Positions 45,630-59,296 of a stretch of 64,000 bases of DNA are shown piece by piece. Position 1 is the stretch's first letter; the number at the start of each line of letters is the position of its first letter. Below the pieces are notes generated by a model, which was given only the letters and a program-made list of their open reading frames with translations, was not told the origin of the DNA and made no database searches. Origin of the DNA: Candidatus Zixiibacteriota bacterium (GTDB taxonomy: Bacteria > RBG-13-66-14 > B26-G2 > WVWN01); contig JAUWLW010000004.1 in assembly GCA_030613505.1 (NCBI GenBank), positions 1 through 64,000 on the forward strand, in the 5' to 3' direction. The position numbers and the translations under genes were made by a program.

Positions 45630-45653
45630 TCTGTGCCAAATATCACAAAATGC

Positions 45654-45682
45654 TTGACTTCGGCGCCGAGGTGTGTTATCGA
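45654..45682 (+). promoter_or_regulatory. Candidate promoter of the nuo operon
   Basis: TTGACT (45654-45659), 17-base spacer, TATCGA (45677-45682), 28 bases before the TTG start of nuoA. The -10 box is weak. Confidence 0.5.
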
Positions 45683-45710
45683 GAGGGAAAATTCCACCGA
45701 GGTAAATATA

Positions 45711-46067
45711 TTGCTAACCGACTACGCGTTCGTTGCGTTCTTTATCGTCTTCGGCTGCTTCTTCGTCGCCGCGGCCCTTATCGGCGCCTGGTTTATTCGT
45801 CCTCAGCGGCCCAGCCGGATTAAGGGCGACATCTACGAGTGCGGCGAGACGACCCGCGGCACCTCCTGGGTCCAATACAACGTCCGGTTTTACCTTGTCG
45901 CCTTGGCGTTCGTGATCTTCGACGTCGAGGTGGCTTTTCTTTTACCTTGGGCCGTCGCCGCGAAGAGGCTGGGCCTGTACGCTTTCGTCGAGATGATGAT
46001 ATTCGTCGGCATCCTCCTCGTAGCGCTGGTGTACGCGTGGCGCAAGGGGGCCCTCAAGTGGGCGTAA
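45711..46067 (+). CDS. nuoA: NADH-quinone oxidoreductase subunit A
   Basis: From TTG 45711 the protein has 118 residues, the usual NuoA length, with SD GAGG eight bases upstream; the open frame back to 45633 would add a non-hydrophobic stretch. Three membrane helices, with [20 protein letters not shown] (the conserved quinone-cavity loop) and [20 protein letters not shown] between the first two. It is the first gene of the complex I operon. Confidence 0.93.
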
Positions 46068-46627
46068 TCGCCAGGCTTCCGGTTTATTGGGAGAAGCTGC
46101 CCGGCGGCGGCATCGTTACGACGAACCTCGAGAAGCTTCTCAACTGGTCGCGCGCCTCGAGCGTCTGGTACATGATATTCGGCCTCGCTTGCTGCGCCAT
46201 CGAGATGATGTCGGCGGGCGCGTCGCGCTACGACTTCGACCGCTTCGGCATGATGTTCCGGGCGACGCCGCGCCAATCCGATTTAATGTTTATCTCCGGG
46301 ACCATCACGCTAAAGATGGCGCCGCGCATTCGCCGCTTGTGGGAGCAGCTGGCCGAGCCGCGCTACGTCATCGCCATGGGCTCCTGCGCCATCTCGGGCG
46401 GCGGCTTCTATTATGACGCGTACAGCGTACTTAAAGGTATAGACAAAATAATCCCGGTGGACGTCTACGTCCCCGGCTGCCCGCCCCGGCCCGAAGCGCT
46501 TATGCACGGCTGCCTGAAGCTGCAGGAGAAGATTAAAGGCGAGAGTCTGGTGCAGGCTTTCGGGAGCTTCGACGAAGAGCACACGCCTCGCGAGCGCCTC
46601 GACGGCCGGTGGATTCTGGCGAAGTAA
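46058..46627 (+). CDS. nuoB: NADH-quinone oxidoreductase subunit B
   Basis: The 189-residue protein starts at a GTG within the end of nuoA (10-base overlap). [11 protein letters not shown] (Cys45-Cys46), GSCAISGG and [10 protein letters not shown] supply the four Cys ligands of cluster N2, the last iron-sulfur cluster before quinone. The region [20 protein letters not shown] is also typical. Confidence 0.96.
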
Positions 46628-46687
46628 TCAAGTCGGTTTAATCCTCTCTTTCACTGTTCTTTCGGCTGGTTGAGATTCGGACCGCAT

Positions 46688-47182
46688 ATGGCCGGATTAC
46701 CTCTCGATCATATAGCAGACAAGATCAAGGACGCGGTAGGGGACGTCGTCGTCGAGGTGAACGAGGGCGACCGGGTCCCCTTTGTGAGAGTGGAGGCCAA
46801 CGCCGTCGCCCGGGTGGCGCGCTTCCTGCGCGACGACGGCGAGCTGGCCTTTGATTTCTTGATGTACATAACCGCGGTCGACTTCCCGGACGAAGACAAG
46901 CTCACGCTCGTATATTATTACTTCTCCTACCAGAACCAACAATCGCTGATGGTAAAGGCCGACGTGCCGCGTCAGGGCGGCACGGCGCGGTCGATAGCCC
47001 ACATCTACGCCGCCGCCGATTGGCTCGAGCGCGAGGTCTACGACCTCTTCGGCGTGACCTTCGACGGCCACCCCAACCTCGAGCGCATCCTGACGCCCGA
47101 GGGCTTCGAGGGCCACCCGCTCCTCAAGGATTTTGCGAGCGAGGACTACGTGCCGTTCCCGGATAAGATGCCGGGGAAGTAG
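46688..47182 (+). CDS. nuoC: NADH-quinone oxidoreductase subunit C
   Basis: From ATG 46688 the protein has 164 residues (TTG 46670 possible). FLMYITAVDFPDEDKLTLVY, SIAHIYAAADWLEREVYDLF and GVTFDGHPNLERILTPEGFE, then GHPLLKDF, are the NuoC signature. It is a separate polypeptide, not fused to NuoD. NuoC is part of the peripheral arm next to NuoB, NuoD and NuoI. Confidence 0.95.
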   Translation: MAGLPLDHIADKIKDAVGDVVVEVNEGDRVPFVRVEANAVARVARFLRDDGELAFDFLMYITAVDFPDEDKLTLVYYYFSYQNQQSLMVKADVPRQGGTARSIAHIYAAADWLEREVYDLFGVTFDGHPNLERILTPEGFEGHPLLKDFASEDYVPFPDKMPGK

Positions 47183-47205
47183 CTTAACGTATTTTAGCAA
47201 GTTCT

Positions 47206-48321
47206 ATGGCCACCGATACCGCTATACATACTCAAGAGTTCCAGGTCAACATGGGGCCGCAGCACCCGTCGACGCACGGCGTCTTTCGCATGGTGCTGAC
47301 GATGGACGGCGAGCGCGTCGTCGACTGCGAGCCCCACGTCGGCTTCCTTCACCGCTCGATGGAGAAGATGGCCGAGAACCGCCTCTACATCCAGTTCCTG
47401 CCGATGGCGGACCGCATCGACTACTTGAGCTCGTTGTTCTGCAGCGTGGCGCACTGCCAGGCGGTCGAGCAGCTTATGGAGATCGAGGTGCCGCCGCGGG
47501 CCAAGTACCTCCGCACGATGTTCATGGAACTCAACCGAATAGCCTCGCACTGCATCTTCTTCGGCGTCTTCGCGCTCGACCTGGGCGCCGTGACGCCCTT
47601 CCTATACGGCTTCCGCGAGCGCGAGCTCACCATGGACCTGTTGGAGATGACGACTGGCCAGCGGATAACGTTCAACTACCCGCGCTTCGGCGGCGTGGCG
47701 GCGGACCTGCCCGATTCGTTCTTCGCCGTGGCGGAGAAGTTCCTGAAAGTTTTTCCGGGCAGAATTACCGACTACGAGCGCATCCTAAACGAGAACGAGA
47801 TCTTCCTGGCGCGGACGAAGGGCGTAGGCGTCGTCGACGGCGCGCGGGCTATAAACTACGGCTGGAGCGGTCCTAACCTCCGCGCCTCGGGCGTGAACTT
47901 CGACCTCCGTCAGAATATGCCGTACGAGGCGTACGGCGAGTTGGGGTACGAGGCCGTGGTGCTCTCGAACGGCGATTGCTACGACCGCTACCTGGTCCGC
48001 ATCCTCGAAATGCGCGCCTCCCACGCGCTCATAAAGAAGTGCCTGGAGGGGTTGCCCGACGGGCCGATCGTTAAGGAGAAAGTGTCCAAGTTCCCCAAGG
48101 TCCCGGCGGGCGAGGTCTACGCGCGCGTCGAGTCGCCGCGGGGCGACTACGGCCTGTACCTCGTCTCGGACGGCACCAACAAACCATACCGCTACAAGCT
48201 CCGGACGCCGTCGTTCAACAACCTCTCGATGATACGGGAGATGCTCCCGGGCGTGTACCTGGCGGACGTCGTGCCGATATTCGGCTCGCTGGACGTCATC
48301 TTGCCGGACGTCGACAGGTAG
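47206..48321 (+). CDS. nuoD: NADH-quinone oxidoreductase subunit D
   Basis: The 371-residue protein has the NMGPQHPSTHGVFRMVL opening with the quinone-site His, EPHVGFLHRSMEKMAENR, YLSSLFCSVAHC, LNRIASHCIFFGVFALDLGA and the C-terminal IFGSLDVILPDVDR. It forms the quinone pocket with NuoB. It lacks the four nickel-binding Cys of related hydrogenases (the N-terminal and C-terminal CxxC are absent), so it is a complex I subunit and not a hydrogenase large subunit. Confidence 0.96.
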   Translation: MATDTAIHTQEFQVNMGPQHPSTHGVFRMVLTMDGERVVDCEPHVGFLHRSMEKMAENRLYIQFLPMADRIDYLSSLFCSVAHCQAVEQLMEIEVPPRAKYLRTMFMELNRIASHCIFFGVFALDLGAVTPFLYGFRERELTMDLLEMTTGQRITFNYPRFGGVAADLPDSFFAVAEKFLKVFPGRITDYERILNENEIFLARTKGVGVVDGARAINYGWSGPNLRASGVNFDLRQNMPYEAYGELGYEAVVLSNGDCYDRYLVRILEMRASHALIKKCLEGLPDGPIVKEKVSKFPKVPAGEVYARVESPRGDYGLYLVSDGTNKPYRYKLRTPSFNNLSMIREMLPGVYLADVVPIFGSLDVILPDVDR

Positions 48322-48337
48322 TTATTGCGCGAAGCGT

Positions 48338-49366
48338 ATGATAATTCACCCCGTACTCTCTTGGCTCAACGAATGGTGGCAGGGCGTCGTGGCGACCTAC
48401 GGCCTGCCGTCGTGCTTCGTTCCGGCGGCGCAGATGGTCGTCCACGCGATATTAATAGGCGGCTTCATCGCGGTACTGGTTCTATTCCTCATCTGGCTCA
48501 CGCGCAAGGTTTCGGCACACATCCAGCAGCGCTTCGGCCCCATGCGGGTGGGGTGGCACGGCTCCGTTCAAACCGTCGCCGACGCGCTAAAGCTGATGCA
48601 GAAGGAGGACACGACGCCGCGCAGCTGCGACCGGCCGGTCTTCAACATAGCGCCGTTTTTGGCCTTCGCGCCCACTATCGTGGCCTTCGTCGTCATCCCG
48701 TTCGGCGACGGCGCTATCATCCGCGACCTCAACATCGGCGTGCTATTCCTCTTCGCGATCACGACCATAAACGTCATCGGCGTAATTTCCGGCGGCTGGG
48801 CGTCGGGTTCGAAGTACTCGCTGTTGGGCGGGTTCCGCTCCGCGGCGCAGCTTGTCTCGTACGAGGTCCCGTTGGTGCTCTCGGCGCTGGGCGTCATCAT
48901 GCTCGCCGGCTCCATGAAGATGGGGGCCATCGTCGACGCGCAGAGCCGGATCTGGTTTGTGGCGTACCAGCCGTTGGCGTTCGTTATTTACATTATCGCG
49001 GCCACGGCGGAGGTGAACCGGACGCCGTTCGACATCCCGGAGGCGGAGCAGGAGATCGTCGCGGGGTTCAACGTCGAGTACTCCGGCATGAAGTTCGCGA
49101 TGTTCTTCCTGGCCGAGTTCGCGAACATGTTCCTTATCGCGGCGATAGCGGCCACGCTCTTTCTGGGCGGGTGGCGGGGGCCGTGGCTGCCGGGCGAGTT
49201 CTGGTTTTTAGCGAAATCTTTCGCGATCGTATTGCTGTTGATGTTCTTCAGGTGGACCTATCCCCGGCTGCGCGTCGACCAGCTGATGTCGTTCGCGTGG
49301 AAGTTCTTGCTGCCGCTCGCTTTTCTTAACTTAATAATAACCGGGCTAATCCTCGTTTTAATATAG
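48338..49366 (+). CDS. nuoH: NADH-quinone oxidoreductase subunit H
   Basis: The 342-residue membrane protein has about eight helices, HIQQRFGPMRVGWHGSVQTV, ADALKLMQKEDTTP, the conserved NRTPFDIPEAEQEIVAGFNV and EYSGMKFAMFFLAEFANMF. NuoH links the peripheral arm to the proton-pumping arm and forms the quinone entry site. The charged E-channel residues are present. Confidence 0.96.
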   Translation: MIIHPVLSWLNEWWQGVVATYGLPSCFVPAAQMVVHAILIGGFIAVLVLFLIWLTRKVSAHIQQRFGPMRVGWHGSVQTVADALKLMQKEDTTPRSCDRPVFNIAPFLAFAPTIVAFVVIPFGDGAIIRDLNIGVLFLFAITTINVIGVISGGWASGSKYSLLGGFRSAAQLVSYEVPLVLSALGVIMLAGSMKMGAIVDAQSRIWFVAYQPLAFVIYIIAATAEVNRTPFDIPEAEQEIVAGFNVEYSGMKFAMFFLAEFANMFLIAAIAATLFLGGWRGPWLPGEFWFLAKSFAIVLLLMFFRWTYPRLRVDQLMSFAWKFLLPLAFLNLIITGLILVLI

Positions 49367-49369
49367 AGT

Positions 49370-49831
49370 ATGAGAGTTTTCCGAGCTATCGGTAGGTTGG
49401 TAAAGGGTACGTGGTGGCTGTTCGTCGGCATGGTTACGACGACCAAGCACTTTTTGCGCCGGGCCATTACGATCCAGTATCCCAAGGAGCGGTTCGAGCA
49501 GTGGCCGCGGTTCCGCGGCCGCGTCGCGATGGTCGCGGGCGACGACGGCGGTCATAAATGTACCGCGTGTGCCCAGTGCATTCGAGTATGCCCGGCGGCT
49601 TGCATTACGCTCGAGCGCCACAAAGAAGGGGGCGTCAAAGGTTTCGTCGTCGACGGATACGTTATCGATATCGGCCTCTGTATTTACTGCGGCCTATGCG
49701 TCGAGGTTTGTAACTTCGACGCGTTGGCGATGGTCCCCGAATACGAGATGTCGGTTTACGACAAGGCGGAGTTGGTATACGACATTCCCAAGTTACTCTC
49801 GCGGCAGCTCGAGCCGGAGTTTAAAAAGTAA
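49370..49831 (+). CDS. nuoI: NADH-quinone oxidoreductase subunit I
   Basis: The 153-residue protein has two 8Fe-type motifs, C64-TA-C67-AQ-C70-IRV-C74-P and C104-IY-C107-GL-C110-VEV-C114, for clusters N6a and N6b, preceded by ITIQYPKERFEQWPRFRGR. In this complex I without NuoEFG, NuoI or an unknown input module would receive electrons, possibly from ferredoxin. Confidence 0.96.
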   Translation: MRVFRAIGRLVKGTWWLFVGMVTTTKHFLRRAITIQYPKERFEQWPRFRGRVAMVAGDDGGHKCTACAQCIRVCPAACITLERHKEGGVKGFVVDGYVIDIGLCIYCGLCVEVCNFDALAMVPEYEMSVYDKAELVYDIPKLLSRQLEPEFKK

Positions 49832-49902
49832 ATACCCGGGTTAATTCTCGGAGAAATCGCCGCAGGGGTCGCAACGGTTTAAAAATAAGGGAATAGGTTA
49901 GG

Positions 49903-50436
49903 ATGAGCGCCGAGATGGAAGTGCGGGGAACATTTTTCCAGGTTTTAAAGCAAGTGTTCCCGCATATTAGCGAGATTGTGGGAGAGGATCTGGCGAAGTA
50001 TTTCCGGGATATCGACGGCGAGGCCTGGTACGACGCGGCCCCGTATCTCGCGGCGATAAAATATCTCCGTGACCGTATATCGCCGCAAGTTATGGTTTTA
50101 ATAGGCAACCAGTTGGTGGAAACGATCAGGGAGCAGGTGCGGGATTCGGACGTTACCTCGCCCCAGGAGTTGGCGGAAAAGTTGCCGGAATTGTACGGCA
50201 ACTTCGTTCGGGGGAAAGGCGCGGGAGACTGGCACGTCGAAGAGTTCGCGCCCGGCAGGGCTATTATCGAAGAAACGGGCGTTACGGGTAACGTGGATTT
50301 TAGCGTAGGGGTTATTAAGAGCAGCTTCGAGGCGGTCGGCGCGTACAACGTGCGGGTCGCGGTTATCGACGACCGCACAAAGGGCGCCGACGCCAACCGC
50401 TACCTGGCGGAATGGATGGAGCCCGACGCGGGCTAA
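49903..50436 (+). CDS. Unknown gene in the nuo operon, possibly V4R/DUF2378-like
   Basis: The 177-residue soluble protein has an alpha-helical first half (GTFFQVLKQVFPHISEIVGE, YLRDRISPQVMVLIGNQLVE) and a beta-rich second half (GDWHVEEFAPGRAIIEETG, GVIKSSFEAVGAYNVRVAVI, then RYLAEWM at the end). The order of secondary structure and the ending pattern resemble V4R, haem-NO-binding and DUF2378 proteins, but no Cys or His ligand typical of these is seen. No signal peptide. It sits between nuoI and nuoJ with 71 and 24 bases of spacing. Its function is unknown. Confidence 0.6.
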   Translation: MSAEMEVRGTFFQVLKQVFPHISEIVGEDLAKYFRDIDGEAWYDAAPYLAAIKYLRDRISPQVMVLIGNQLVETIREQVRDSDVTSPQELAEKLPELYGNFVRGKGAGDWHVEEFAPGRAIIEETGVTGNVDFSVGVIKSSFEAVGAYNVRVAVIDDRTKGADANRYLAEWMEPDAG

Positions 50437-50460
50437 GTACGACGCGGCGGCGTTAAAAAT

Positions 50461-50967
50461 ATGACCGACTGGATTTACGTAGTAGCTTTTTACGGCGTCG
50501 CCGGCGTGGCGTTACTCGGCGGCCTGGGCGTGCTTTTCTTTCGGAACCTCTTCCACGCCGGCCTGAGCTTGATTCTCTCGCTCTTCGCCGTAGCCTCGCT
50601 GTTCGTCCTCTTGGGCGCGGAGTTTCTGGCCGGCGTACAGGTGCTGGTCTACGTGGGCGCGGTGGCGGTACTTATTCTCTTCGCCGTAATGTTGACGCAG
50701 CGTATTACGGCCAGGCGCGTCAGGAGGTACACGCGCGCGCTCATACCCGCGGCGTTGGTAACGCTCGGCCTGGCGGTCGTAACCGTGTTCGTGATGGTAA
50801 AGGTCGAGCTGCCGGCGATAGCGCCTATACCCGAGGCCAGCGCCATCGACGAGCTCGCCGACCAGCTGCTCTCGACGTACTTGTTGCCGTTCGAAGTCAT
50901 ATCGTTGCTTCTCTTGGGGGCGCTGGTCGGCGCCATCGTTCTGGCGCGGAAGGAGGAGCGGCGGTGA
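50461..50967 (+). CDS. nuoJ: NADH-quinone oxidoreductase subunit J
   Basis: The 168-residue protein has five membrane helices with the conserved FRNLFHAGLSLILSLFAVAS, GAEFLAGVQVLVYVGAVAVL and ILFAVMLTQR. NuoJ holds the pi-bulge helix near the E-channel. Its stop overlaps nuoK as GTGA. Confidence 0.95.
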   Translation: MTDWIYVVAFYGVAGVALLGGLGVLFFRNLFHAGLSLILSLFAVASLFVLLGAEFLAGVQVLVYVGAVAVLILFAVMLTQRITARRVRRYTRALIPAALVTLGLAVVTVFVMVKVELPAIAPIPEASAIDELADQLLSTYLLPFEVISLLLLGALVGAIVLARKEERR

Positions 50968-51275
50968 CGATAACGCCCCTCCACTTCGTCGGCGTGTCGG
51001 CGCTTCTTTTCGGCATCGGCCTGCTCGTCGTCCTGACCCGGCGCAACGCCATCGGCGTACTCATGGGCATCGAGCTCATGCTCAACGCCGTCAACGTGCA
51101 GCTGGTGACGTTCGACCGCGTTTACGGACCCGAGCGCCTCGACGGGCAACTCTTTTCGTTGTTCGTAATAACGGTCGCGGCGGCCGAGGCCGTCGTCGGC
51201 CTGGCGTTGATACTTGCAGTCTACCGCTCGCGCGGGACCGTCGCCGTTGACGACCTGCACGAGCTGCGAGGGTAA
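50964..51275 (+). CDS. nuoK: NADH-quinone oxidoreductase subunit K
   Basis: The 103-residue protein (GTG start in the overlap with nuoJ) has three helices, LLVVLTRRNAIGVLMGIELM, LNAVNVQLVTFDRV and FVITVAAAEAVVGLALILAV with the conserved buried Glu residues of the proton path. Confidence 0.96.
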   Translation: MTITPLHFVGVSALLFGIGLLVVLTRRNAIGVLMGIELMLNAVNVQLVTFDRVYGPERLDGQLFSLFVITVAAAEAVVGLALILAVYRSRGTVAVDDLHELRG

Positions 51276-51283
51276 GTTCTAAG

Positions 51284-51883
51284 GTGGGGCGGATAATCGC
51301 AGCGGCGGCCTTATGGACGTTCTGCCTTGCGGCGGGCGCCGCCGGCGAGTACGAGTTGTTTACGTACGACGCGCTCGGCGTGGCGCTTACCGTCCCGCCG
51401 GGGTATGAAGTGGACGCGGCCCCGCCGGCCGAAAGCGCTACGGCCGCCGCGGTTCGCTTGAGTTGGCCCGAGGGGCCGTACGCCGACTTGGATGCGTTAA
51501 TAATACGCCGCAAGGCCGCGTACGCGAACGTAATTATCTGGGCCGGCCTTTACCAGCGTCGGCTGGGGGCGTCGGACTCGTTCGAGGCGGAAGCCGACCC
51601 CTTAGGTGGAGCTGAACTCGCGGCGGCTGGCGCGGACGACGGCCTGAGAGGTTCGTACGTCGTCGGGGAGGAAGAGGGGCGGCGGCGCCTCGAGGTGTTA
51701 TTTTTGGCGTCGGCGAAGACATTTTACGTTGTGGAGATCTCGTACCCGGACGTCGTGGAAAGCCGCCTCGCGGCCGCCACGCAAAAAATGTTGAATACGT
51801 TTAAGATATTACCGCCGGTAGAAGATGTGCTATCCGAAGGAAGCGGTAGCACCGATGCCGGGCGGGAACCGCCCTCGGAATAA
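51284..51883 (+). CDS. Secreted unknown protein in the nuo operon, PsbP/Mog1-like
   Basis: The 199-residue protein (GTG start) has a signal peptide (MGRIIAAAALWTFCLAAGAA) and one alpha/beta domain: YELFTYDALGVALTVPPGYE, VRLSWPEGPYADLDALIIRR, GLRGSYVVGEEEGRRRLEVL and YVVEISYPDVVESRL, followed by MLNTFKIL and an acidic tail. The pattern of a sheet starting YDALGVxLxVPPGY and ending LxTFKIL is that of the PsbP/DUF1795 (Mog1-like) fold. It lies between nuoK and nuoL with 8 and 9 bases of spacing, so it is clearly co-transcribed. The role in complex I, if any, is unknown. Confidence 0.65.
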   Translation: MGRIIAAAALWTFCLAAGAAGEYELFTYDALGVALTVPPGYEVDAAPPAESATAAAVRLSWPEGPYADLDALIIRRKAAYANVIIWAGLYQRRLGASDSFEAEADPLGGAELAAAGADDGLRGSYVVGEEEGRRRLEVLFLASAKTFYVVEISYPDVVESRLAAATQKMLNTFKILPPVEDVLSEGSGSTDAGREPPSE

Positions 51884-51892
51884 ACTCGAGCT

Positions 51893-53821
51893 ATGGTCTG
51901 GTTAGCGTCCATAATAATTATCGCGCCTTTGCTGGGCTTTCTAATCGCCATCCTGTGGGGTAAGCGGATGGGCGAGCCCAAGGCCGCGATCGCGCCGGTC
52001 GCGGCGCTGGGCGTGTCCTTCGGTGCCGCGATAGCGCTCTTCGCCGGCACCCTGCTGGGGTACGGCGGCGATTTCTCCTACACCTGGTTCCGGGTGGGCG
52101 ACTTCGCGCTGCAGGTCGGCTTCCTGCTCGACCGCTTCGCCGGCGTAATGGCTCTCGTCGTCGCGACCGTTTCGTTCATGATCCACATCTACTCGACCGG
52201 CTACATGGCCGGCGACAAGCTCTACGGCCGCTACTTCGCGTACCTGAACCTCTTTTCGGCGGCGATGCTCGGGTTGGTTTTGGCCAACAACTTCCTGCAA
52301 GCGTTCATCTTCTGGGAACTGGTCGGCCTAACGTCGTACCTCTTGATCGGCTTCTGGTTCGAGAAGCCGGAGGCGGCCAACGCCGGCATGAAAGCGTTCA
52401 TAACGACGCGGCTGGGCGACGTCGGCCTGTTAGTGGGCATTATACTCATATTCACGTTGACCGGCACGTTCCACTTCGGGACCATCTTCGGCCTGATCGA
52501 GTACGGTGCGCTGGCGCCGGCGATGGTAACGGCGATCGCTATTCTCATCTTCGCGGGCGCGGTGGGGAAGTCGGCGCAGATACCGCTGCATGTCTGGCTC
52601 CCCGACGCGATGGAGGGCCCGACGCCGGTCAGCGCCCTGATCCACGCCGCGACGATGGTGGCCGCGGGCGTCTACCTCGTCGCGCGCTCGTTCCCCATAT
52701 TCGTCGCCGCCGCCGGGGCCTCGGAGGTCGTGGCGTACGTGGGGGCGACCACGGCCCTCATGGCCGCGACCATAGCCGTAGTCCAGATAGACATCAAGCG
52801 CGTGCTGGCGTATTCCACCATAAGCCAGCTCGGCTATATGATGCTCGCGTTGGGGTGCGGCAGCCAGGCCGCGGGGATATTCCACCTCTACACGCACGCG
52901 TTCTTCAAGGCGCTTTTGTTTTTAGGCGCCGGCGCCGTCATCCACGCTTGTCACACCAACGATATGCGCGAGATGGGCGGCCTGGGCCGCCGGATGAAGT
53001 GGACCGCGGCGACCTTCATACTGGCGGCGCTCGCGCTGGCGGGCGTGCCGCCGTTCTCGGGCTTCTTCTCCAAGGACGAGATTCTGGTCGCGGTCGTCGA
53101 CCACGGCGGATGGTACTTGGCCTTCGCCGCTTTCTTCACCGTCTTCCTGACGGCGTTCTACATGTTCCGCGCCATATTCATTACCTTCGGCGGCAAAGCG
53201 GGGGAAAAGGCGGAGCGCGCCCGTGAGGCGCCCTGGAATATGTTGGGGCCGATGGTATTCCTCTGCGTATTCGCGGTCGTGGCCGGATGGATCGGCATAC
53301 CGGGGGTAACGAAGGGCTTCGCGTGGTTGGCCGGCTTCGATGTGCACGGCGAGCACTACGGCATCAACGTCGGCGCCGCGGGCGCGTCGCTCGCTTTGGC
53401 CGCGGGCGGCATCGGGCTGGCGTGGGCTTTGTATAGATTGAAGGTGTACCCGGTCGAAAAGATTTACAGGACCTTCCGGCCGGTGGCGGTTGTGCTCGAG
53501 CGCAAGTACTTCTTCGACGACGTGTACGGCTTCCTGTTCGTTAAGGGTACCGTATTCTTCGCGCGGCTATGGGGCCTGTTCGACAATTACGTAATAGACG
53601 GCGCCGTGAACGGCACCGCCCGGCTTACGGTCCTGTTGTCGAAGTTCAAGGGTTGGTTCGACCTCGCCGTCGTGGACGGCGCGGTCAACTTCACCGGCTG
53701 GATTACGCAAGCTTTCGGTAAAACATTCCGCCGCGTCCAAACGGGCTACGTTCAGGAATATCTAATAGTCCTGGTATGCGGCGTAATCGCGATACTGGTC
53801 GCGGTGCTCGTTATCCTTTAG
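51893..53821 (+). CDS. nuoL: NADH-quinone oxidoreductase subunit L
   Basis: The 642-residue protein has about 16 helices, VSFMIHIYSTGYM, YFAYLNLFSAAMLGLVLANN, the antiporter core FWELVGLTSYLLIGFWF, GAVGKSAQIPLHVWLPDAME, HAATMVAAGVYLVAR and QIDIKRVLAYSTISQLGYMM. The C-terminal region contains the long lateral helix and a repeated VDGAVN-type segment (IDGAVNGTARLTVL and VDGAVNFTGWI). It is a proton-pumping antiporter-like subunit. Confidence 0.96.
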   Translation: MVWLASIIIIAPLLGFLIAILWGKRMGEPKAAIAPVAALGVSFGAAIALFAGTLLGYGGDFSYTWFRVGDFALQVGFLLDRFAGVMALVVATVSFMIHIYSTGYMAGDKLYGRYFAYLNLFSAAMLGLVLANNFLQAFIFWELVGLTSYLLIGFWFEKPEAANAGMKAFITTRLGDVGLLVGIILIFTLTGTFHFGTIFGLIEYGALAPAMVTAIAILIFAGAVGKSAQIPLHVWLPDAMEGPTPVSALIHAATMVAAGVYLVARSFPIFVAAAGASEVVAYVGATTALMAATIAVVQIDIKRVLAYSTISQLGYMMLALGCGSQAAGIFHLYTHAFFKALLFLGAGAVIHACHTNDMREMGGLGRRMKWTAATFILAALALAGVPPFSGFFSKDEILVAVVDHGGWYLAFAAFFTVFLTAFYMFRAIFITFGGKAGEKAERAREAPWNMLGPMVFLCVFAVVAGWIGIPGVTKGFAWLAGFDVHGEHYGINVGAAGASLALAAGGIGLAWALYRLKVYPVEKIYRTFRPVAVVLERKYFFDDVYGFLFVKGTVFFARLWGLFDNYVIDGAVNGTARLTVLLSKFKGWFDLAVVDGAVNFTGWITQAFGKTFRRVQTGYVQEYLIVLVCGVIAILVAVLVIL

Positions 53822-53830
53822 GGGGGCGGG

Positions 53831-54388
53831 TTGAAGACGTTTCCGTTAAACGGGGCGCACGTGAGAAAGGTAGTAGCGCTCCACCGGGCGACGCGGCCTT
53901 GGTGCTACCGGGGTAAAGCCGTCAAAACCGTGCTGCGCGCGTTCTACGACGCGTACGCCAACCGCGACTTCACCGTCGGGACGGTGGCGTTGGAAGAAGA
54001 GGACGTAGTAGGAGTTATGTGCGGCGCGACGGAACGGGCGGGGCCGGCGCGGTGGCTGCGGCAGAGGAGGCGGTGGCGTTCGTTCTGGCCCAGGCTCGCG
54101 GGCGGGGCGGATATGGCGCTCGGTGGTTGGGACGCCGCGACGTTGGCCCGAGCGGCCGAAGGCTTCGAGAGGCCGGCTTACCTCGTTGCCGCGGCGACGG
54201 CGGAAGGATTAGCGGGAGACGGCCTTGCGGCTTTAAGCGACTCGTTCACGGCGGCGGTGGCTTCGCGGGGCGCGACGCATATAGTAGCTCCGGCCACGGC
54301 GCCGGACGAACGGCTGGAACGCGTGGGTTTCGAACCGGCCGGGGCCGAGGGCGGCGGAGCGTTGGTTATTTACGTGAAAAAGTTATGA
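53831..54388 (+). CDS. Unknown gene in the nuo operon, GNAT-like
   Basis: The 185-residue protein (TTG start after GGGGGG) has an opening that resembles GNAT acetyltransferases: LNGAHVRKVVALHRATRPWC, AVKTVLRAFYDAYANRDFTV, then VALEEEDVVGVMCGATE, the second strand of the fold. The usual acetyl-CoA pyrophosphate loop (RxxGxG/A) is not obvious; the middle segment is Arg/Trp-rich and may be a degenerate linker. The C-terminal GATHIVAPATAPDERLERVG and GFEPAG match the end of GNAT folds. It overlaps the next gene as ATGA. A role in the operon is unknown. Confidence 0.55.
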   Translation: MKTFPLNGAHVRKVVALHRATRPWCYRGKAVKTVLRAFYDAYANRDFTVGTVALEEEDVVGVMCGATERAGPARWLRQRRRWRSFWPRLAGGADMALGGWDAATLARAAEGFERPAYLVAAATAEGLAGDGLAALSDSFTAAVASRGATHIVAPATAPDERLERVGFEPAGAEGGGALVIYVKKL

Positions 54389-54984
54389 CGTTCGCGCGAA
54401 AGGAATTAATCGGCGTATTAATAGCTGCGGTTATGGCGACGGCCGCCGCGGCCGATGACGCTATGCCGTACGAGGAGATAATTTCGGCCGACGCTGGCTG
54501 CCGCGAGTACTTCTGGGAAGGGGTCGACGCGATCGGCGGCGGCAAGATGAAGGACGCGCGGGACAAGCTGGATAACGCGGTCAAGGAGGACGCCGATTGT
54601 TTCCTGGCGTACTTGCTGCTGAGCCAGCTCGAGTACGTCGAGGGCAACGACGAGAAGTCCACTGAGTACTTACAACGGGTCGCGGCCGAACCGCCGGAGC
54701 TGTCCGCGCTGTACGAAGAGGTCGCGGCGGCGTTGCGCGCCGACGACTACGAGGCCGTTGCGTCGCAAGCGGAGAAGTTGGTGGCGGCGTATCCCCAGAC
54801 GATGCGAGCTATAGCGGCCCTTCACCTGCTCGGGCGCGCGCAGTACCAATTGGGGCGCCGGACGGAAGCCGCGTTAACGCTGAAAGCGGCCTATATGTAC
54901 TCGGACCTCGCGCCGGGCACGGTACCGGCGTACGGTTCGGAGGCCGAGGCGGAAGAATTGAAGGAATTCGCGGGCGTGCGTTAA
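54385..54984 (+). CDS. Secreted TPR-like protein in the nuo operon
   Basis: From ATG 54385 the protein has 199 residues. The long open frame to 54019 overlaps the GNAT-like gene and is not used. A signal peptide (ELIGVLIAAVMATAAAADD) is followed by helical repeats: CREYFWEGVDAIGGGKMKDA, DNAVKEDADCFLAYLLLSQL, VASQAEKLVAAYPQTMRAIA and LHLLGRAQYQLGRRTEAALT. It is likely periplasmic. It lies 35 bases before nuoM. Function unknown. Confidence 0.7.
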   Translation: MTFARKELIGVLIAAVMATAAAADDAMPYEEIISADAGCREYFWEGVDAIGGGKMKDARDKLDNAVKEDADCFLAYLLLSQLEYVEGNDEKSTEYLQRVAAEPPELSALYEEVAAALRADDYEAVASQAEKLVAAYPQTMRAIAALHLLGRAQYQLGRRTEAALTLKAAYMYSDLAPGTVPAYGSEAEAEELKEFAGVR

Positions 54985-55019: not shown

Positions 55020-56504
55020 ATGGCGATGGCGTTTCCTATTTTAACTGCAACGGTCTTTACGCCGGTTGTGGGGATGTTGGTAGTCTTGCTCCTCCCCGAA
55101 CGGTGGGTGACCGGCATTCGGGCCGTGGGTGTCGCTTTCACCGCCGTGACGTTGGGTTTCTCGGCGTGGGCGCTCGCCGTATTCGACCCGAGTATAACGG
55201 GCGCGATGCAGTTCGAGGAATTGCACCGGTGGATCCCTTCGGTAAATATTTTCTATCATCTCGGCGTCGACGGCCTCTCGATGCCGCTGCTTATTCTTAC
55301 GACGCTGTTGTCGCTTTTAGCCGCCATCGCCTCTTTCTCTATAAAGGAACGGGTCAAGGAATATTACGCGCTGTATTTATTGCTCGTGGCCGGGATGCTG
55401 GGTGTCTTCGTCTCGCTCGACCTCTTCCTGTTCTACGTCTTCTGGGAAGTCATGTTGGTGCCGATGTACTTCCTCATCGGCATGTGGGGGGGCGAGAGGC
55501 GCGAATACGCCGCCATAAAGTTCTTCCTCTACACGTTGCTGGGAAGCGTCATAATGCTCTTGGGGATATTGGCGCTGTACTTCACCGCTCAGCCCCACAC
55601 CTTCGACATGCTCGAGCTTATGCGGCAGCAGGGGACCTTCCTGCGGACGTTCCAGATCGTCGTTTTCCTGGCGTTCTTCGTGGGCTTCGCGATAAAGGTG
55701 CCGGTCTTCCCCTTCCACACGTGGCTGCCCGACGCCCACGTCGAGGCGCCCACGGCGATATCGGTATTGCTGGCGGGCGTGCTATTGAAGATGGGCGGCT
55801 ACGGCCTGCTCCGCGTTTCGTTCCCGATACTACCGCAGGGCGCCCACTGGTTCGCCTGGCCGCTGGCGATATTGGGCGTGATAAACATCGTGTACGGCTC
55901 GCTGGTCGCCATGGCCCAGAAAGACCTCAAGAAGCTCATCGCGTACTCGTCGGTAGCGCACATGGGTTTCGTGCTTCTGGGCGCGGCGGCCATGACGCCG
56001 ACGGGTCTCAACGGCGCCGTGATGCAGATGGTCTGCCACGGCATCATTACGGGCGCGTTGTTCCTCTTGGTGGGCGTCCTCTACGACCGCGCCCACGTCC
56101 GCGAAATCGACGCCTTCTCGGGCCTCGCCGTCCGCGTGCCGGTGTACTTCGGCATCATGTCGTTTACGATGTTCGCTTCTCTCGGATTGCCCGGTCTCGC
56201 CGGGTTCGTGCCGGAATTTTTATCGCTCGCCGGGGCCTTCCCGGTCTTTCCGGTGCTGGTCATCATCTCGGGCGTCGGCATAGTCATAACCGCGGCTTAC
56301 TTCCTGTGGACCATACGGCGCATGTTCCTGGGGAAATTAATGCCGCGGTGGGAGAATTTACCGGACATCAACTTCCGCGAACTCGTGACGGTGGTGCCGC
56401 TCATGGTCCTCATGGTTCTCATCGGCGTCTATCCGTCTATAATAATTAAATTGATGAACCCGGCTCTCACCGAACTCTCGCGGTTTATGACGGCCCTCAA
56501 GTAG
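55020..56504 (+). CDS. nuoM: NADH-quinone oxidoreductase subunit M
   Basis: The 494-residue protein has 14 helices with GVDGLSMPLLILTTLLSLLA, SLDLFLFYVFWEVMLVPMYF, GFAIKVPVFPFHTWLPDAHV, EAPTAISVLLAGVLLKMGGY and QKDLKKLIAYSSVAHMGFVL, all of the NuoM antiporter-like subunit. The start is the ATG at 55020 after TAGGAGGCT; a second ATG at 55026 is equally possible. Confidence 0.96.
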   Translation: MAMAFPILTATVFTPVVGMLVVLLLPERWVTGIRAVGVAFTAVTLGFSAWALAVFDPSITGAMQFEELHRWIPSVNIFYHLGVDGLSMPLLILTTLLSLLAAIASFSIKERVKEYYALYLLLVAGMLGVFVSLDLFLFYVFWEVMLVPMYFLIGMWGGERREYAAIKFFLYTLLGSVIMLLGILALYFTAQPHTFDMLELMRQQGTFLRTFQIVVFLAFFVGFAIKVPVFPFHTWLPDAHVEAPTAISVLLAGVLLKMGGYGLLRVSFPILPQGAHWFAWPLAILGVINIVYGSLVAMAQKDLKKLIAYSSVAHMGFVLLGAAAMTPTGLNGAVMQMVCHGIITGALFLLVGVLYDRAHVREIDAFSGLAVRVPVYFGIMSFTMFASLGLPGLAGFVPEFLSLAGAFPVFPVLVIISGVGIVITAAYFLWTIRRMFLGKLMPRWENLPDINFRELVTVVPLMVLMVLIGVYPSIIIKLMNPALTELSRFMTALK

Positions 56505-56517
56505 ACGGCCGCGCGTT

Positions 56518-58029
56518 ATGGAATACGACTGGCTTAGCCTCTTACCCCATTTAATACTCGCCGGCGGCGCGGTAGTGCTGGTGGCGGCGGGCGCGGCTTC
56601 GCGGCGCTTCGCCGGCGCCGTGGCGCCTTATTTCACGGTCGCGGTAGCGGCGGCCACGGCCGCCGCGGCGTTGATGCTGTGGCGCGAGCCGGCGTCGTCG
56701 TGGTTCGGCGCGCTTACCGTCGACCCGTTCTTCGTTATCTTCGCCGTCATCTTTGCGGCGACGCTCGCGCTCGTGGCGCTGTTGTCGGCGCGGTACGCGC
56801 CGCTCGACGGTAGCGACCGGCCCGAGTATTACGCCCTCCTCATAATGGTGACGTGCGCCGTGACGTTTATGGCGTCGGCTACCAACCTCGTCCTAATCTA
56901 CGTGGCGATCGAGTTCTCCAGCATACTTTCCTACATCCTCGTCGGGTACGTCCGCGGCGACCGGCTCTCGGGCGAGGCAGGCCTGAAATACTTCCTCTAC
57001 GGCGCGGTCGCTTCCGCGGTGATGTTGTTGGGGTTCGGGCTCCTGTACGCCATGACCGGCGCTACGGACCTGGCGGCGGTGGCGGCGAATTTGCCGCACA
57101 TGGGGCGCTCGTTCGAGACGTGGGGGTACGTTACGGTCGTCACGCCGTCGGGCGGGGCCGCGGCGACGCTTTCGCCGGTGTTTATCTTCTTGGCGTTCGG
57201 GCTTATACTCGTCGGCTTGGGTTACAAAATTTCCGCGGTACCCTTCCACATGTGGGCGCCGGACGCGTACCAGGGGGCGCCCACGCCCGTCGCGGCCTTC
57301 CTCTCGGTGGCGTCGAAGGCGTCGGGATTCGCCGTCATATTGCGCCTGGTGCTGACGCTGCACGGCGCGCTCGACTTGGTATACGGCGGGTGGACCAAAT
57401 ACTTGGCGGCGCTGGCGGTGGCGTCGATGGTCTTCGGCGTCGTCGTCGGCATCGTACAGACGGACGTGCGGCGGCTGTTGGCGTATTCGTCGATCGCCCA
57501 CGCCGGCTTCGCGTTGTTGGGAATCGTCGCCGATACTCAACTCGGCTTTGCATCGGTCATCGTATATCTCGTGCTATACGCGGCGATGAATATCGGCGCT
57601 TTCGGCACGGTGGCCGTCATAGGCCACGTTACCGGCGGCTACGACTTGAAGGATTACGCCGGCATGGGGCGGCGGCACCCGGTACTCGCCGCGGCCCTTG
57701 CAGTCTTCCTGCTCGCGCTGGCCGGGATTCCGCCGTTATCCGGCTTTTTCGCGAAGTTCTACGTATTGGCGGCGCTAATCGACCGGGACTATATTTTCCT
57801 GGCGGTAGTCGCCATTTTGGCGAGCGTCGTCGCGCTTTTCCTGTACGCGCGCGTTATTAAACCGATGTACTTCGGCAAGGCGGAGGGCGAAGATGTCCGG
57901 CGGTTTTCGCCGGCGGCGGCGGTGGCGCTCGTAATATGTTTCCTATTCACGTTGCTCCTGGGCGTTTGGCCGCAACTTCTCGTGGCGTGGGCCAAGGCGG
58001 CGATAATACCCCTTTTACCTAGGATATAG
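56518..58029 (+). CDS. nuoN: NADH-quinone oxidoreductase subunit N
   Basis: The 503-residue protein has 14 helices, VLIYVAIEFSSILSYILVGY, SGEAGLKYFLYGAVASAVML, YKISAVPFHMWAPDAYQGAP, QTDVRRLLAYSSIAHAGFAL and LAGIPPLSGFFAKFYVLAAL. It is the last gene of the operon and ends before a terminator. Confidence 0.96.
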   Translation: MEYDWLSLLPHLILAGGAVVLVAAGAASRRFAGAVAPYFTVAVAAATAAAALMLWREPASSWFGALTVDPFFVIFAVIFAATLALVALLSARYAPLDGSDRPEYYALLIMVTCAVTFMASATNLVLIYVAIEFSSILSYILVGYVRGDRLSGEAGLKYFLYGAVASAVMLLGFGLLYAMTGATDLAAVAANLPHMGRSFETWGYVTVVTPSGGAAATLSPVFIFLAFGLILVGLGYKISAVPFHMWAPDAYQGAPTPVAAFLSVASKASGFAVILRLVLTLHGALDLVYGGWTKYLAALAVASMVFGVVVGIVQTDVRRLLAYSSIAHAGFALLGIVADTQLGFASVIVYLVLYAAMNIGAFGTVAVIGHVTGGYDLKDYAGMGRRHPVLAAALAVFLLALAGIPPLSGFFAKFYVLAALIDRDYIFLAVVAILASVVALFLYARVIKPMYFGKAEGEDVRRFSPAAAVALVICFLFTLLLGVWPQLLVAWAKAAIIPLLPRI

Positions 58030-58150: not shown

Positions 58151-59296
58151 ATGTTTAAACGCGATTATACCTTGATGATATGTTCGCATTCGTCGGGGCG
58201 AACGCGGTCGGTCCATTTGTCGCGGCGGGTTATCGCGGCGCTAGCGGTATTCTTATGCAGCCTCGCCGTAAGTGTGGGCGGCGTCGCGGTGACGTTGTAT
58301 TACAATTACGGCGCTATGGACCGCGCGGTCCGGCCTACGTTCGACCGGAACCGCCGATTGACGGCTGAGAACCGCCGCCTTGGCGGAGAGATGGGGCAGC
58401 GCGATAAAGTCATTTCTAATTTGAGTTTCCGACTTCAAAAGGAGCGCGACGATTACGCGCTCCGCTTGGAGGAGCTCGACGCGGCGTTGAAGAAGCTCGA
58501 TAAGTTCTACACCGACCTCAGGATAATGGCGGGATTTAAGCTCGACGCCGAATCGGCCAAGAAGCTCAGCGCCGGGGGCCCGACGATAAGCGAGGCCGAG
58601 TATTTCGATTCGCTTTACAAGCTGGACGAAGAACGTTTCCGCGCCGAAGCTCGGCGGCACGAGCGAACGTTGCGTACCTATTGCGTCGGTTGCGAAAAGG
58701 AATTCCTTATCCTTCGACGCCTGCTGGAACGCCGCAAGTCTCTCTTGGCGGACGTTCCCGATATGCCGCCGGTGAAGGGTATCATAACGTCGTACTTCGG
58801 CGCGCGGCGTTGGCGCGGCCGCATCCACGGCGGGTTGGACATCGCTGCGCCGCGCGGTACGCCGGTGCGAGCTCCGGCCGAGGGGGTGGTGGTGGTTGCG
58901 GGCCCGTATCCGTACTATGGGAACGTGGTTTTCCTCGACCATGGCGGCGGTTTCTCGACGCGCTACGGCCACCTCGCGAAGGCGGACGTCAAGGTCGGCG
59001 ACCGCCTCGAACGGGGCGACTTAATAGGGCGGGTGGGTGCCACAGGCCTCGCTACCGGCAGCCACGTCCACTACGAAGTCCGTGTCAACAACGTCCCGGT
59101 CGACCCGTACAACTACCTCAACGCCAAGTTGCCGGTTCACATCGTTGACGGCAGCAAGCTTAAAGTGATCGCGATTCCCGACGACGCCGACTTGCTTATC
59201 CCGGACGAGGTTTTCGAAGCGTACGAGAAGAAAGCCTCGGCCGAAGCGGCGAAGGTTCCCGTTGAGAAAGTTCGCGAAGAAGGCGGAACCGAATAA
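58151..59296 (+). CDS. M23-family metallopeptidase with coiled-coil stalk
   Basis: The 381-residue protein has a short cytoplasmic start (KRDYTLMICSHSSGRTRSVH), one transmembrane helix at about 28-50, a coiled coil at about 65-115, and the LytM domain at about 235-335 (HGGLDIAAPRGTPVRAPAEG, GFSTRYGHLAK, GSHVHYEVRVN). The HxxxD and HxH zinc ligands are kept, so it should cut peptidoglycan cross-links. The 50-residue C-terminal tail is charged. A second member lies at 34449. Confidence 0.9.
   Translation: MFKRDYTLMICSHSSGRTRSVHLSRRVIAALAVFLCSLAVSVGGVAVTLYYNYGAMDRAVRPTFDRNRRLTAENRRLGGEMGQRDKVISNLSFRLQKERDDYALRLEELDAALKKLDKFYTDLRIMAGFKLDAESAKKLSAGGPTISEAEYFDSLYKLDEERFRAEARRHERTLRTYCVGCEKEFLILRRLLERRKSLLADVPDMPPVKGIITSYFGARRWRGRIHGGLDIAAPRGTPVRAPAEGVVVVAGPYPYYGNVVFLDHGGGFSTRYGHLAKADVKVGDRLERGDLIGRVGATGLATGSHVHYEVRVNNVPVDPYNYLNAKLPVHIVDGSKLKVIAIPDDADLLIPDEVFEAYEKKASAEAAKVPVEKVREEGGTE

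Follow-up and report, generated by a model that had tools for sequence, protein, structure and literature searches.

Bacterial complex I is usually regarded as a minimal machine of 14 subunits or fewer. To our knowledge, the enzyme of most bacteria needs no dedicated factors beyond these. In the window analysed here (64,000 nucleotides from a Candidatus Zixiibacteriota genome), a nuo operon with the order nuoA-B-C-D-H-I-X1-J-K-X2-L-X3-X4-M-N raises the question of what four genes without nuo identity contribute, and in particular what the pair X3-X4 is doing between nuoL and nuoM. The original prediction had described this pair as a degenerate-looking GNAT and a periplasmic helical-repeat protein, encoded by overlapping genes that break the L-M-N order. 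It had also suggested that the four inserts could be a set of assembly or regulatory factors special to this lineage. The overlap and the interruption were confirmed, as was the count of four non-nuo genes at three sites (I-J, K-L and L-M; Table 1).

Table 1. Coordinates of the nuo operon genes and their inserts in the window.
Feature	Position	Strand	Remarks
nuoA, B, C, D, H, I, (X1), J, K (upstream part of the operon)	45636..51275	+	ORF list and comparison with relatives; Oxidored_q4 in nuoA
X1, 177 aa, nuoI-nuoJ junction	49903..50436	+	weakly DUF2378/TIGR02265-like
X2, secreted PsbP-fold protein (predicted structure), nuoK-nuoL junction	51284..51883	+	GTG start
nuoL	51893..53821	+	Pfam PF00361 E=6.1e-89; 94-85% identity in congeners
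X3, predicted GNAT-fold protein, 185 aa	53831..54388	+	TTG start; orthologues at nuoL-nuoM in 4/4 congeners
X4, predicted secreted TPR protein, 199 aa	54385..54984	+	ATG 54385; TPR_16 E=1.3e-6 (below curated cut-off); order-wide at nuoL-nuoM
nuoM	55020..56504	+	Pfam PF00361 E=3.1e-81
nuoN	56518..58029	+	Pfam PF00361 E=8.6e-73

The pair is tightly packed into the operon. The start codon of X3 lies 10 nt past the end of nuoL, the overlap between X3 and X4 consists only of ATGA, as in coupled genes, and 35 nt separate X4 from nuoM, which is preceded by a conserved TAGGAGG. A 321-aa ORF (54019-54984) was considered as the X4 gene and rejected; it is the X4 frame extended upstream, and both the orthologues and the signal peptide place the start at the ATG within the ATGA. 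Judging from the ORF list and the comparison with relatives, the nuo operon of the window contains no nuoE, nuoF or nuoG. The 51-kDa NADH-binding domain occurs in three genes on other contigs of the source genome (C50, C7 and C63; open frames of 1072, 1067 and 438 aa). Downstream of the operon, ARAGORN placed a tRNA-Trp on the plus strand (58793-58886); this call falls entirely within a peptidase-like gene (58151-59296) and is probably spurious.

For the comparison with relatives, 14 genomes of the phylum were used, comprising four congeners (the source and three others), one genome from another family of the same order (G004), two from other families of the class (G005 and G006) and seven from the remaining family. 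When the proteins of the window were searched against the related genomes with tblastn, the same inserts were found at the same places. All three other congeners (loci L088, L089 and L090) carry both X3 and X4 between nuoL and nuoM, with respective identities of 77, 57 and 45% for X3 and 91, 65 and 57% for X4, and the ATGA overlap is preserved in 4/4 congeners. In G004 (locus L092), X4 (45% identity) occupies the same junction; X3 is absent from this genome, and a gene for a 536-aa secreted protein stands upstream of X4 in its place. Genetic linkage with the nuo genes was thus constant for X4 in the five genomes of the order and for X3 in the four congeners, each occurring only at nuoL-nuoM. 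Profile searches of the 14 genomes revealed no second or close copies of either gene elsewhere besides generic TPR or noise hits, and those of the 14 without the operon yielded neither X3 nor X4. Outside the phylum, a search of 131 genomes gave no X3 match at E≤1e-5.

The other two junctions are less uniform. X2-type genes are found order-wide at nuoK-nuoL; in G004 this junction holds three genes for small secreted proteins, and two of these are clearly related to X2. Within the order, the X2 family hardly occurs away from this junction. The confinement is not absolute, as G002 carries a remote homologue outside nuo (L112:8840-9311), which adjoins an assembly gap and a gene resembling a permease. 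X1 is present at nuoI-nuoJ in three of the four congeners and absent in G003. The nuo operon of G002 looks cut at the contig start, its upstream half, including X1 at I-J, being located at another scaffold position that adjoins a gap. X3 is genus-specific; X4 and genes of the X2 type keep their junctions throughout the order. The proposal of a lineage-special set holds with regard to lineage restriction and fixed position, but not as one fixed set, with X1 missing in G003 and X3 replaced in G004.

Relatives with a clean gene order and the inserts scattered elsewhere were not encountered: G005 and G006 both display a clean L-M-N, and X3 and X4 are absent from them altogether. In the seven genomes of the remaining family, no antiporter-type subunits were detected. 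The nuo operons of the relatives hold further genes of their own. In that of G005 (L093:3789-8548), the H-I junction is occupied by genes for a PiT-type transporter and a DUF47-like partner, and the K-L junction by one for a 549-aa membrane protein that matched nothing in Pfam; the operon also includes a glycosyltransferase-like gene (the transporter, its partner and this last gene were named by inspection). Two secreted TPR proteins, one lipoprotein-like, are encoded between nuoD and nuoH in G006 (L094:3631-5080), the usual site of E/F/G, and a 134-aa membrane protein with no Pfam match lies between nuoH and nuoI in G004 (L092:6204-6608).

The L-M junction was also examined in 85 nuo loci that had been collected by nuoL similarity and came mainly from other phyla, a sample with a bias towards relatives of this NuoL. 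The median L-M gap was 29 bp; gaps of at least 300 bp were found in only four loci, all from this order. Inserts at K-L were slightly commoner (six loci). We also estimated dN/dS by NG86 between the source and G001, obtaining 0.13 for X4, 0.18 for X1, 0.36 for X2 and 0.39 for X3, with 0.07-0.16 for the nuo genes. X3 thus evolves, relative to dS, about three times as fast as most nuo genes. These values demonstrate that X1-X4 are all under purifying selection and behave as functional genes, and that the constraint on X4 is that of core nuo subunits. Together with the orthologues at matching sites, they show that the arrangement goes beyond chance, and they rule out artefacts or spurious ORFs. 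A recent foreign insertion is disfavoured, as GC and GC3 resemble those of the flanks and the site is kept across families.

X3 is basic (pI 9.6; 9.1-9.8 in the orthologues) and has no signal peptide. It matched no GNAT profile in Pfam or NCBIfam, a profile search against solved structures returned nothing credible, and only the fold comparison was informative. An AlphaFold model (pLDDT 70, pTM 0.72, from an alignment of only four sequences) shows the GNAT fold (β-α-α-β-β-β-α-β). When it was compared with solved structures (Foldseek/VIA), the matches listed were GNAT-fold domains, with Z of about 13-14 over 130-169 aligned residues; 843 of the best 999 Foldseek chains had Z of at least 8. The motif A loop that holds the acetyl-CoA pyrophosphate (R/Q-x-x-G-x-G/A) is missing in 4/4 orthologues, and the loop preceding helix 129-144 differs from one to the next (EGLAGDG, EELTEDG, DALSDDD and EDLGADQ). 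As a control, the GNAT at L098 of the class relative G005, which has the same architecture, retains VRGSGA and matches PF00583 at 2.8e-10. Invariant positions of X3 number 52/100 in the N-terminal half, which includes a strongly conserved RPxCYRGK segment, and 17/85 in the CoA half. Judged by its predicted fold, X3 is probably a GNAT that has lost the CoA loop, that is, a pseudo-acetyltransferase, in line with the degenerate appearance noted originally. A binding module on the cytoplasmic side would be the economical reading.

X4 is acidic (pI 4.4). Its Pfam match to TPR_16 is significant yet below the curated cut-off, and a comparison with a solved TPR protein gave E=2.9e-9. A hydrophobic N-terminal segment of the signal-peptide type is present in 5/5 orthologues. 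Invariant positions concentrate in the last third (YPQT, LHLL and PGTxPAY), where the C-terminal motif S-x-L-x-PGT-x-PAY does not vary. The TPR profiles and the conserved N-terminal signal identify X4, at the level of sequence, as a predicted periplasmic TPR protein, and the helical-repeat assignment stands.

X2 is also acidic with a signal-like N-terminal segment. It had no match in family libraries, and a profile search against solved structures gave nothing credible. Its AlphaFold model (pLDDT 80, pTM 0.74) predicts an exported α/β sandwich of the Mog1/PsbP type. The best solved matches were chain 0 of spinach NDH-PSI (Foldseek E 2.7e-6) and CyanoP (VIA Z 15.3), followed by Arabidopsis and barley NDH-PSI chains (Z 13.6 and 12.5) and, at lower Z, Mog1, DcrB and LpqN. 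The PsbP fold is widespread among secreted proteins, and the likeness to NDH is therefore a parallel and not proof of shared function. Identity to a PnsL1-type NDH chain is about 10% with no profile match, and the fold alone cannot decide orthology. Chloroplast NDH is a relative of complex I. We infer that the matched NDH-PSI chains are PnsL1 from papers that place the PsbP-like protein PnsL1/PPL2 in the lumenal NDH subcomplex of chloroplasts, where it is vital to NDH stability (PMC3813922, PMC12170339). As for X1, the match to DUF2378/TIGR02265 was weak (E 1.6e-4 to 1.6e-3) and limited to the C-terminal half.

The fixed linkage, the overlap and the topology together suggest that X1 and X3, predicted to be cytoplasmic, and X2 and X4, predicted to be periplasmic, are accessory proteins of the membrane arm. 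We slightly favour the view that X3 and X4, together with X2 and X1, are special to the complex I of this lineage, whose membrane arm they would serve either as supernumerary subunits or as dedicated assembly factors; the assembly or regulatory role first proposed for the inserts would be an interpretation of the same kind. Having lost CoA binding, X3 may use the N-terminal face that it has conserved to dock close to NuoL/NuoM from the cytoplasm. X4 would be exported, and its TPR groove and conserved C-terminal motif could cap or guide the periplasmic loops of NuoL/NuoM, X2 doing a similar job beside NuoK/NuoL. Synthesis between L and M would deliver the accessory proteins while the distal antiporter modules insert. 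Points that count against this reading are the fast evolution of X3 and its replacement in G004, the lack of X1 in G003, and a complex I that in most bacteria does without factors of this kind.

The main rival is that the inserts are hitchhikers, envelope or housekeeping proteins with functions unconnected to complex I, which benefit from nuo being expressed strongly and constitutively and whose position is inherited rather than functional. Guilt by association is weakened because the nuo operon of a class relative includes genes that look unrelated. Such genes recur in the class, as the PiT-type transporter and its partner, the 549-aa membrane protein and the two TPR proteins at D-H illustrate. 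Insert contents also vary between families, and X3 and X2 are fast-evolving. However, X4 and X2-type genes hold their junctions across two families, the X3-X4 overlap is kept, neither X3 nor X4 has a second copy in the phylum, and the L-M junction is otherwise closed in 81/85 loci. We consider hitchhiking rather unlikely.

A second possibility is that X3 works as an acyltransferase, using an unusual CoA site to modify a Nuo subunit or the cytoplasmic precursor of X4. The GNAT fold is predicted over its full length, and RPxCYRGK could bind an acceptor, but with the pyrophosphate loop gone from every orthologue, the CoA half the least conserved, and no GNAT profile matched where the intact class GNAT is recognized, activity seems improbable. 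X3 and X4 might also act together in regulation or sensing, adjusting the expression of nuo or the activity of complex I in response to a signal instead of building the complex. Overlapping genes for a cytoplasmic and a periplasmic partner, and the resemblance of X1 to DUF2378/TIGR02265, would suit such a role; profile searches found no DNA-binding, kinase or transmembrane signalling domain in X1-X4, and we regard it as very improbable.

If the preferred reading, accessory proteins of the membrane arm, is true, accessory layers of complex I arise repeatedly, with pseudo-enzymes and PsbP folds reused on both membrane-arm faces. In the papers at our disposal, nothing useful was found about the complex I of Coatesbacteria or about nuo-operon TPR factors. 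Few lineage-specific extras of bacterial complex I are known, among them CI-PIMT, NDUFS4/S6/A12 and MSMEG_2064 (PMC11522691). In a published survey of complex I, hits are grouped under a limit of 250 bp on their spacing (PMC12361115), and nuo clusters with inserts such as these would therefore be split in it.

A more specific version, which we put forward tentatively and think possible though not likely, is that an accessory layer on complex I evolved here independently, with a PsbP-fold and a TPR protein paired in the periplasm and a pseudo-acetyltransferase in the cytoplasm. Each would be encoded within the core operon, where the genes of the subunits that it binds meet, and the layer would have converged on the lumenal subcomplex found in plant NDH. 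Known proteins resemble the single components to different degrees. X4 shares a signal peptide and TPRs with the periplasmic proteins YbgF, BamD, PilW and PrsT, its best named profile matches, but scores far below their curated cut-offs, has its own PGTxPAY motif and is encoded with complex I. X3 resembles GNAT acetyltransferases, including the pseudo-HAT of O-GlcNAcase (3zj0), in predicted fold over its whole length (Z about 13-14), and differs from them in lacking the CoA loop and a Pfam GNAT match. A direct bacterial precedent is CI-PIMT, a catalytically dead PIMT methyltransferase bound to complex I of Paracoccus denitrificans (PMC11522691). Its fold is not that of a GNAT, and its binding was proven by cryo-EM; nevertheless, both are lineage-restricted enzyme folds that have lost catalytic and cofactor residues, attached to a bacterial complex I, in X3 presumably so. 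The lumenal subcomplex of chloroplast NDH is set apart by the low identity of X2 (about 10%), the TPR nature of X4 and the fact that no PsbQ or immunophilin partners were seen in this operon, but X2 has in common with PnsL1/PPL2 that it is a predicted secreted PsbP-fold protein on the p-side of a complex I relative, and its model matches the NDH-PSI chains themselves.
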